The notes under the pieces are model-generated. The model made no database searches, was not told the DNA's origin, and saw only the letters and a program-made list of their open reading frames with translations. A stretch of 45,948 bases of DNA, from positions 1 to 45,948 of the forward strand of contig JAJSDS010000002.1 of assembly GCA_028580875.1 (NCBI GenBank), read 5' to 3'. The position numbers were made by a program, and so were the translations under genes. Shown piece after piece: positions 26,615-29,981 of this stretch; position 1 is the stretch's first letter, and each line of letters opens with the position of its first letter. Source of the stretch: Nitrosotalea sp. (GTDB lineage: Archaea > Thermoproteota > Nitrososphaeria > Nitrososphaerales > Nitrosopumilaceae).

Positions 26615-27409
26615 CTAGGTGTGCATCGAATAAACCCGGTAAGTCTTTCCAGTCTTCTTGTCTTGGTAGCTCCATCTGTTGTCTTGCCATTCTACTTTCT
26701 CAAAGAGACTCTTCAGTGACGGATGTAATTTTTCATACACATCTTCTCCAACCAAAATTTGGTTTGGCTTGGCAAGTGCTGTAATCTTTGCTGCAATACT
26801 CACCGCCGGTCCCAAAATGTCTACGTGAGATCTGACTTGATCAGCGCCATATCTAACAATCACATTCTCACCAAAATCCATTCCTATCTTTACACGTAAT
26901 TCTGGATAATCATATTCACTAAGTATTGGATTTATTCCACGTTCAATTACGTCTACCATTGTTCGTGCACAGTTTACTGCACTGTCGGATACAACAAGTG
27001 GGCTCTCTTCTGCAATGAAATATCCGATGACTGCATCTCCGACATATTTTAGAACATAACCTCCGTGGTGACGGATTACTGAACGCATCTCTTGCGAAAA
27101 TGAACTAATTATTATGCCAAGTTTCTCTGGGGGAAGAAGTAATGCCATATCTGTTGAGCCTACCAAATCTACAAACATGACTACCATGTGCAGTTTTTGT
27201 GCCACATGTTTTCGTAGAAATGTGTCAGATTCATCAACCGAATAATCATATTCGTATCCTTTCTTGAGCGAACTCCATACTCTTTTTTGTGTCTCCTTGA
27301 TCAAACTTTCGCTATCAAGTGTGCCAGACTTGCCACCACCTAACATCATGTCTATGATGCTGTTGGTACTGGTCTTTTCTTCTTGCTGGTTTTCAGGTTC
27401 TTCACTCAT
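26615..27409 (-). CDS. Class III adenylate/guanylate cyclase domain protein
   Basis: MVVMFVDLVGSTDMALLL, GGYVLKYVGDAVIGYF, IGMDFGENVIVRYGADQVRSHVDILGPAVSIAAKI. Confidence 0.9.
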   Translation of the reverse strand: MSEEPENQQEEKTSTNSIIDMMLGGGKSGTLDSESLIKETQKRVWSSLKKGYEYDYSVDESDTFLRKHVAQKLHMVVMFVDLVGSTDMALLLPPEKLGIIISSFSQEMRSVIRHHGGYVLKYVGDAVIGYFIAEESPLVVSDSAVNCARTMVDVIERGINPILSEYDYPELRVKIGMDFGENVIVRYGADQVRSHVDILGPAVSIAAKITALAKPNQILVGEDVYEKLHPSLKSLFEKVEWQDNRWSYQDKKTGKTYRVYSMHT

Positions 27410-27562: not shown

Positions 27563-27674
27563 GGTCAAAAATGGTTTTATTTAGTATTTAAAGTGCATAC
27601 CGATTTTATGGGGCAGCTAATGGGAAAGACTTGTGCAGATACCTACCAGCAATCCAGACCCTTTCATAAAATCG

Positions 27675-28469
27675 ATGAGTGACAAGGCAGAGAATATCAG
27701 AACCTTGTTCTTGGAAAATATTACAACTCTTACAAATAAGGTTCCATTGAAGGTGATGCTAGGAGACGGCACGGTAACTGATCAAGAATCATTTGATCCT
27801 GCACGTGTACGACAATTCTTCGATGATCTTCTAAAAAAGATTCCCGAGTGGAACAACCAAGGAGTATCTGCAACTTCAGAAAAAGACCTGAGACGAAGTT
27901 TTATAAAATTTGAGATAAAGGAAGGGAACTATCTGCTCTCTGGACACATGTCTCTACAATATCACGCATTATTGTTCTACAAGTTAGATCATCGCGTGAT
28001 TGAAATCCAAAAAGAATTATCCGACATATCTGACATGATTACAAAACTCCAAGTTCAAGTTGGACCTGAAAATGACAAGATAATTGAAGAAAAGCTAAAA
28101 CAGGAAGGATATCAGGGCATGGATGAGCAAAAACTATTTGAAGTTTTGTTCAATCGTGAAGACATTACCCAGGACATAGTAAAATCAATCGAGGTTTCCC
28201 ACGCTGAACATACAAAACTTGTTGCAAACAGAGATAGATTATTTGGAGAACTTGACAACATGCTCATCGAAGTATATCATACAACACCTGTGCTAATTGA
28301 TGAGAACAAAATGATCGCAGCAGAAGAGGGATGTCTTTGTAATTTCAATTTAGAGTATCTAAAGAACAACACAAGACAAGGAAACATAAACTTGGCAAGA
28401 ATCTCAGAACAGACCAAGACAAACTTGCTTGCATTGCTTGATAGTATCATAAAAATTCTAAAAAATTAA
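27675..28469 (+). CDS. Hypothetical protein, coiled-coil, about 264 aa
   Basis: Intact ORF; M at 27675 (MSDKAENIRTLF) is a plausible start. Confidence 0.7.
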   Translation: MSDKAENIRTLFLENITTLTNKVPLKVMLGDGTVTDQESFDPARVRQFFDDLLKKIPEWNNQGVSATSEKDLRRSFIKFEIKEGNYLLSGHMSLQYHALLFYKLDHRVIEIQKELSDISDMITKLQVQVGPENDKIIEEKLKQEGYQGMDEQKLFEVLFNREDITQDIVKSIEVSHAEHTKLVANRDRLFGELDNMLIEVYHTTPVLIDENKMIAAEEGCLCNFNLEYLKNNTRQGNINLARISEQTKTNLLALLDSIIKILKN

Positions 28470-28476
28470 AAAATTG

Positions 28477-28483
28477 TTTATAT
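28477..28483 (+). promoter_or_regulatory. TATA-like box upstream of structured element
   Basis: TTTATAT, about 30 nt 5' of the inverted-repeat element at 28513. Confidence 0.35.
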
Positions 28484-28512
28484 CAAAGTATTTTCAAAAA
28501 TCATTAACATTT

Positions 28513-28590
28513 AGTCAAGGGGCAAGAACTGTACCATGGTGCCACAGTTTGGGGAGTAGACACCATGTGACGTCACATGACCCCTTGACT
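28513..28590. ncRNA. Candidate structured RNA/cruciform element with branched (three-way junction) potential
   Basis: Outer AGTCAAGGGG (28513-28522)/CCCCTTGACT (28581-28590); AACTGT/ACAGTT hairpin (28527-28549); perfect 16-bp palindrome CATGTGACGTCACATG (28564-28579). Confidence 0.5.
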
Positions 28591-28635
28591 TAGATCAGTC
28601 ATGTTGTCAGAATATTATTTAGCCCTTTTTGATCC

Positions 28636-28658: not shown

Positions 28659-28772
28659 AGTAATGATGTGTTTTTTATTTAAAATGTATGATAATGATCA
28701 AAAATATGTATTAGTTTTTCAGCGTAAACTGCTCAATAAACCAAATATACCAAGATAGGGCTGAAAACTCTG

Positions 28773-29981
28773 TTGAATGTCACTTTTGACGATATAGTAC
28801 GATCACAAAAAATCCAGCGAAATGTGATCAGAAGAACTCCTCTTGAAAGTTCGCACTCATTTAGTGTGATGACTGGCTCAAAGGTTTACCTGAAATCAGA
28901 ATGTCTGCAAAAAACTGGCTCATTTAAATTTCGAGGTGCATATGCAAAGATTGCCAGTCTTTCAAAAGATGAAAAAAGAAAGGGAGTGATTGCAGCTTCT
29001 GCAGGAAATCATGCGCAAGGTGTCGCATATGCATCATCACTTGAAAAAATCCCATGTACAATTGTAATGCCTGTCACAGCTTCGCCTGCAAAAGTTTCTG
29101 CAACTAGATCATATGGTGCAAATGTGATTTTAGAGGGTACCATTTATGATGAATCTTCTGCAAAAGCTGCAGACATTGCACAAAAAACTGGAGCCACAAT
29201 GGTTCATGCTTTTGATGATGAAACGGTAATTGCTGCACAAGGTGTGATAGGGCTTGAAATCATGGAAGACCTTCCAGATGTTGACGAGATTTATGTTCCA
29301 ATAGGTGGAGGAGGTCTTGCAGCTGGAATACTAAAAGCAGTCAAGACAAAAAAACCCAAAGTCAAGGTGATTGGTGTACAATCATCTGGTTTTCCTGCAA
29401 TGAAAAAATCATTTGACATTGGCAAATTACAATCAGTTTCTGGTCACAGGACCATAGCAGACGGCATATCTGTAAAAACTCCTGGTCATTCAACATTTAA
29501 AATCATAAACGAGTTGATTGATGACATTGTTCTTGTTGATGATTCTTCCATAGTAAAAGCAATGTTTCTACTCATGGAAAGATCAAAGACAGTAGTAGAA
29601 CCAGCAGGTGCTGTGGGTCTTGCATACTTGCTTGACAAAAAGCCCGCCAAGGGCAAAAAAGTTGTCTCAATTTTATCTGGAGGAAACGTAGACATGTATT
29701 TACTGGGACAAATCGTGGCAAAGGGACTCACAGAAATGGGAAGGATGGTCAAGATCTTCATACTTTTGACCGATAAACCCGGGGCACTCAAGGAGGTAAT
29801 TGACCAGATATCATCTTTGAGTGTAAATATCGTGGATGTGATACATGACAGACTAAGCTCAAGCATACCTGCAGGCACGGCTGGAGTGACATTGAGTCTG
29901 GAAACTCAAGATTCTGAGCATGCAGAGCAGTTGATAAGATTTTTGAAAAAGAAAAATGTCCAATTCAAGGTAGTCACCTAA
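28773..29981 (+). CDS. ilvA: Threonine ammonia-lyase (threonine dehydratase) with C-terminal ACT domain, TTG start
   Basis: SECLQKTGSFKFRGAYAK, ASAGNHAQGVAYA, PIGGGGLAAGI, C-terminal ACT region. Confidence 0.93.
   Translation: MNVTFDDIVRSQKIQRNVIRRTPLESSHSFSVMTGSKVYLKSECLQKTGSFKFRGAYAKIASLSKDEKRKGVIAASAGNHAQGVAYASSLEKIPCTIVMPVTASPAKVSATRSYGANVILEGTIYDESSAKAADIAQKTGATMVHAFDDETVIAAQGVIGLEIMEDLPDVDEIYVPIGGGGLAAGILKAVKTKKPKVKVIGVQSSGFPAMKKSFDIGKLQSVSGHRTIADGISVKTPGHSTFKIINELIDDIVLVDDSSIVKAMFLLMERSKTVVEPAGAVGLAYLLDKKPAKGKKVVSILSGGNVDMYLLGQIVAKGLTEMGRMVKIFILLTDKPGALKEVIDQISSLSVNIVDVIHDRLSSSIPAGTAGVTLSLETQDSEHAEQLIRFLKKKNVQFKVVT

Follow-up and report, generated by a model that had tools for sequence, protein, structure and literature searches.

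A predicted structured RNA family conserved in Nitrosopumilaceae, absent from Rfam, with an exposed CUCCCC loop

The intergenic, trans-acting small RNAs (sRNAs) of archaea such as Haloferax and Methanosarcina are short and structured, carry an exposed loop, and lack a conserved reading frame. In bacteria, the sRNAs FsrA and RsaE have C-rich loops that contain a UCCCC-like contact motif, and they occur as sibling copies. The ammonia-oxidizing archaea rank among the most abundant microbes of soil and sea, and, to our knowledge, few regulatory RNAs have been described in them. Here, we describe a predicted RNA encoded in a 45,948-nt stretch of contig JAJSDS010000002.1 from a Nitrosotalea sp., which we refer to as the window. 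In its small size, intergenic position, structure, exposed loop, and lack of a conserved reading frame, this RNA resembles the sRNAs of Haloferax and Methanosarcina; however, it was found only in the Nitrosopumilaceae, and we do not claim that the two are related in sequence or structure. It shares with FsrA and RsaE the occurrence of sibling copies and an exposed UCCCC-like motif that is a candidate contact site, whereas targeting of ribosome-binding sites is unsupported for this RNA and the organisms are unrelated. Extra copies in some genomes and stems that vary around a short, near-invariant loop motif are also reminiscent of CsrB- and 6S-type RNAs, although the RNA described here has one loop in each copy. 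Tan1 of marine Euryarchaeota is a 229-nt noncoding RNA that was detected in transcript data (PMC5069720). Both RNAs are lineage-specific archaeal noncoding RNAs to which no function has been assigned, but Tan1 belongs to another phylum and is known from transcripts, and no relation between them is claimed.

Position and range of the RNA

The RNA lies between ilvA and up278, a gene for a conserved protein of 278 amino acids. The features of the locus are given below, where A6 denotes a 50-sequence MAFFT alignment made without structure and A1 denotes a plain MAFFT alignment.

28511 to 28591, minus strand (RNA order 28591 to 28511): RNA hairpin domain, matched by covariance model R3 on the minus strand (64.6 bits, E 2.8e-15)
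28581 to 28590, minus strand: outer stem P1, RNA 5' arm AGUCAAGGGG, from covariation on A6
28513 to 28522, minus strand: outer stem P1, RNA 3' arm CCCCUUGACU, from covariation on A6 and between-genus arm permutations
28559 to 28567, minus strand: inner stem P2, 5' arm CAUGGUGUC, from pair variation in A1 and an inner stem in the minus-strand RNAalifold prediction for A1
28535 to 28543, minus strand: inner stem P2, 3' arm GGCACCAUG, from the same two lines of evidence as the 5' arm
28551 to 28556, minus strand: near-invariant exposed CUCCCC loop motif (CTCCCC kept in all copies examined except five)
28616 to 28622, minus strand: TATA-like box CTAAATA, 32 nt ahead of the start of P1 and found in nearly all copies
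28623 to 28630, minus strand: purine-rich, BRE-like AAAAAGGG, immediately upstream of the CTAAATA box and kept in aligned copies (direct reading)
28460 to 28476, minus strand: T-rich CAATTTTTTAATTTTTT, a candidate terminator downstream of the hairpin that overlaps the 3' end of up278 (read from the sequence)
27633 to 28469, plus strand: up278, conserved protein, convergent with the RNA and found in 17 of the 18 genera in the sample
28773 to 29981, plus strand: ilvA, for threonine ammonia-lyase, pointing away from the RNA (TIGR01127, 491 bits, above cut-off)
28742 to 28751, plus strand: CAAATATACC, promoter-like motif directly ahead of ilvA, with a counterpart also in genomes that lack the RNA
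28477 to 28483, plus strand: TATA-like box TTTATAT, with a plus-strand score similar to that of tRNA TATA boxes

Within the family of the RNA, up278 occurs in all sampled genera, usually upstream of ilvA, and its product has no match in Pfam, NCBIfam, or the PDB. A conserved protein with a class III adenylate/guanylate cyclase domain is encoded at 26615 to 27409 on the minus strand and adjoins up278 in many genomes.

With blastn, relatives of the RNA were detected in about 30 congeneric genomes; within the genus, the main copy sits between up278 and ilvA. An exact pattern, searched against a collection of 84,980 species, returned 29 matches, every one in a Thaumarchaeota record, whether Nitrosotalea-type or other (among them LN890280.1, "Ca. 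Nitrosotalea devanaterra"), and none in viral contigs. Among the genera, which are labelled here by number, the covariance model identified clear homologues in g6 and weaker homologues elsewhere. Matches in g3, g6, g8, g9, g11, g12, g19, and g20 are flanked by orthologues of up278 and ilvA, and the model contains no gene information; direct reading of the up278-ilvA gap added g4, g17, and g22. With the minus-strand model, 78 of 250 family genomes had matches at E ≤ 0.05, which, apart from a few chance matches near the threshold, is a lower bound because strict search filters miss copies that synteny reveals. Across 350 genomes sampled from the class, every match fell within the family except one (E 0.02, model E-values being rough), and no credible homologue was found outside the Nitrosopumilaceae in the genomes sampled. 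The RNA is absent from the up278-ilvA locus in several genomes, including the sampled genomes of g14 and g18, so it is not essential throughout the family.

Paralogues with other neighbours are present in some genomes, with up to four copies per genome. One class lies near pilus-type genes (named by eye). A third class (class C, comprising L102 and related loci) adjoins a gene that by eye resembles 3-dehydroquinate synthase II; about ten genomes of the genus carry it, in many cases alongside the ilvA-side copy. Genome G019 carries four copies, at L030, L048, L059, and L102, in a large assembly (2.5 Mb) that may be a mixture of strains.

Known classes of element were compared with the RNA. At the gathering threshold, Rfam 15 gave nothing for the element or for 15 homologous loci; an E-value scan of the element against Rfam yielded chance-level matches only, and literature searches returned no description of this RNA. 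We rejected an archaeal C/D box sRNA, as the RUGAUGA and CUGA boxes are both missing from the window's minus-strand hairpin (direct reading). For H/ACA features, there was no Rfam match, and inspection of the folds revealed no consistent two-sided pocket. A small protein gene or micro-ORF was also rejected: the frame is not kept, and hairpin lengths span all three residues modulo 3, a variation that argues against a conserved reading frame. The same holds for a MITE-like mobile inverted repeat. The initial annotation of this DNA, which proposed a candidate novel noncoding RNA, had named many dispersed copies as the mark of such a repeat; the element is present once in its own assembly, so this objection does not apply, and its syntenic position is conserved. 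The proposal of a novel noncoding RNA is borne out by the homologues, the compensatory changes, the constant position, and the lack of an Rfam match.

Fold, strand, and promoter signals

The search for homologues and covariation that the initial annotation suggested was productive: homologues were found, and P1 covaries. On A6, P1 was paired in 91.1% of cells, with both sides changed in 11 of 12 pairs; the number of cells in which both sides had changed was 54, compared with 13.9 ± 3.4 in shuffles, and slid versions of the stem were at most 56% paired. When one sequence was taken per genus, the native arms of P1 gave -14.6 kcal/mol versus -9.8 kcal/mol for permuted arms, and just 2 of 40,320 permutations, one of them the native order, were as good. 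Covariation cell counts take in related sequences, and the genus-level permutation is the control least affected by this. On A1, P1 and P2 together had 38 cells with both sides changed, against 16.9 ± 4.2.

An earlier model of the element was a three-way junction built from three inverted repeats. All three are present in the window, namely, the outer arms AGTCAAGGGG (28513 to 28522) and CCCCTTGACT (28581 to 28590), the AACTGT/ACAGTT repeat near 28527 to 28550, and the 16-bp palindrome CATGTGACGTCACATG (28564 to 28579), which is restricted to the source genome and its nearest relatives and lacks wider conservation. The GC fraction across 28509 to 28628 is 0.44, versus 0.37 in 1.2 Mb of a congener. 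The junction itself did not hold up: its inner helices were paired in only 42 to 61% of cells, with no excess over shuffles. The RNA is instead one long imperfect hairpin that exposes the near-invariant CUCCCC. Two alternative inner hairpins can form in several copies from the same genus and in the cross-genus set, depending on whether the middle strand pairs with the strand before it or the one after it. These may be a switch or may be due to chance, and the evidence for a bistable switch is mixed.

The RNA is encoded on the minus strand, as indicated by the wobble pattern and by folding energy. A rod model on the plus strand was rejected, and its high A·C count prompted a test of strand: read on the plus strand, stem variation comprised 59 A·C and 14 G·U pairs, a ratio that is reversed on the minus strand. 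In P1 of A6, which covers 50 family-wide copies, the minus-strand reading gave 47 G·U versus 10 A·C. RNAalifold on A1 gave -17.87 kcal/mol for the minus strand versus -4.16 kcal/mol for the plus strand and recovered the long outer stem on the minus strand only. Of 58 copies, 48 folded better as the minus strand than as the plus strand (mean z of -4.88 for minus versus -2.56 for plus), and the block described here, compared with dinucleotide shuffles, gave -38.1 kcal/mol (z of -5.0) on the minus strand and -30.1 kcal/mol (z of -2.5) on the plus strand. Alignment A4 was fitted to the plus-strand structure and was excluded from the strand evidence. The TTTATAT at 28477 to 28483, previously read as the plus-strand TATA box of the RNA, is a real box, but the wobble pattern and folding energies do not support that reading. 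The initial reading chose the wrong strand, and the case illustrates the need to test strand.

On the minus strand, a BRE/TATA-like GAAAAGG-CTAAATA or a variant of it lies upstream of P1 in nearly every copy; CTTTATA or TTTTATA takes the place of CTAAATA in genera g12 and g22. The TATA-like motif is 31 to 32 nt from P1 in 44 of 67 copies and 29 to 35 nt from it in 54 of 67; in some of the remaining copies, the script picked another match as the stem start. Scored against an 8-column TATA matrix from tRNA genes of a congener, the plus-strand TTTATAT exceeds the minus-strand CTAAATA, and so promoter evidence alone is indecisive on strand. A 13-column matrix from 18 tRNA genes was discarded as too noisy for separating the strands. 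Past the 3' end of the hairpin, at a distance of about 30 nt, comes the TTTATAT box, in place of which some paralogues have GTTATATCC; the box is possibly an antisense promoter.

Proposed function and rival explanations

We think that the locus probably encodes a structured small RNA that stands alone, is read from the minus strand under its own TATA-like promoter, and acts in trans through its CUCCCC loop. We infer transcription of the minus strand from the TATA-like promoter around 28622; the predicted RNA would start at the outer stem or nearby, at about 28590, and have a length of roughly 80 to 130 nt. It would fold as a long imperfect hairpin whose apical loop or asymmetric internal loop leaves (A/U)CUCCCC unpaired, and it would most likely act in trans by presenting this motif to a partner. 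The candidates are a protein that binds RNA and, in a small number of target RNAs, a short complementary stretch. A role in cis on ilvA is unlikely, because the RNA points away from ilvA and towards up278, and because paralogues occur with neither gene.

A free plus-strand RNA that starts from the TTTATAT at 28477, or an amino-acid-sensing leader of ilvA, is improbable. Such a transcript could draw on a strong TATA-like box that lies at a fairly constant distance within the genus, and ilvA is downstream in the plus direction in all orthologues. However, stem variation is wobble compatible mainly on the minus strand, folding of the plus strand is weaker, and g11 and g19, in which the end of up278 nearly touches the stem, show no apparent counterpart of the box. 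A leader or riboswitch, as the initial annotation considered for ilvA, was rejected: the RNA is transcribed from the opposite strand and away from ilvA, the promoter-like motif of ilvA lies in between and is retained in genomes where the RNA is missing, and paralogues sit at other loci without ilvA. A palindrome acting as DNA (an operator, a cruciform, or a mobile inverted repeat) with no RNA is very unlikely; perfect inverted repeats, including the 16-bp palindrome, do occur in the window, but a DNA element gives no reason why one strand should favour G·U at the expense of A·C, and neither the single copy in the assembly nor the position conserved across genera fits it.

Within the trans-acting small RNA that we favour, two modes of action can be distinguished. 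Base pairing of the CUCCCC loop with a few mRNAs is a reasonable but less than even possibility. An exposed motif common to orthologues and paralogues suggests it, and a shared exposed motif among copies is typical of sibling sRNAs. Complementary 7-mers are not enriched around start codons in "Ca. N. devanaterra", by a test that is blind to a few specific targets; complementarity to the loop was found near the starts of 18 genes, compared with 22.8 ± 12.3 for shuffled loops. Sequestration of a protein that binds the C-rich loop, with extra copies titrating more of it in the manner of CsrB- and 6S-type RNAs, is a nearly equal possibility. It would agree with a near-invariant unpaired CUCCCC on variable stems, with the presence of at most four copies per genome, and with the lack of an excess of complementary mRNA start sites; however, the candidate neighbour, up278, while adjacent and conserved, also occurs where the RNA is missing.

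Interactions with the ribosome were also considered. Complementarity of the loop to rRNA in "Ca. N. devanaterra" was not distinctive, with 23% of shuffles reaching the observed match. Pairing with helix 27 of 16S rRNA was rejected, since the 16S rRNA of this organism reads GGGAAGTACGG at the site, which breaks the match. Anti-Shine-Dalgarno action was likewise rejected: GGGGAG occurred near starts once, versus once in the control, in 1.2 Mb, and 7-mer complementarity was not enriched. The full genome with a different open reading frame cut-off gave 6 versus 1, numbers that are too small to weigh.

We give about an even chance to the broader interpretation that these RNAs form an undescribed regulatory family in the Nitrosopumilaceae, present as siblings in some genomes, and govern a process of these ammonia-oxidizing archaea via the near-invariant CUCCCC loop and a protein or RNA partner. 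Collectively, its presence across many genera of the family, its clear structure, its predicted promoter, and its near-invariant loop make the RNA a candidate for a new RNA-family entry and give RNA-seq and pull-down experiments in ammonia-oxidizing archaea a concrete target.
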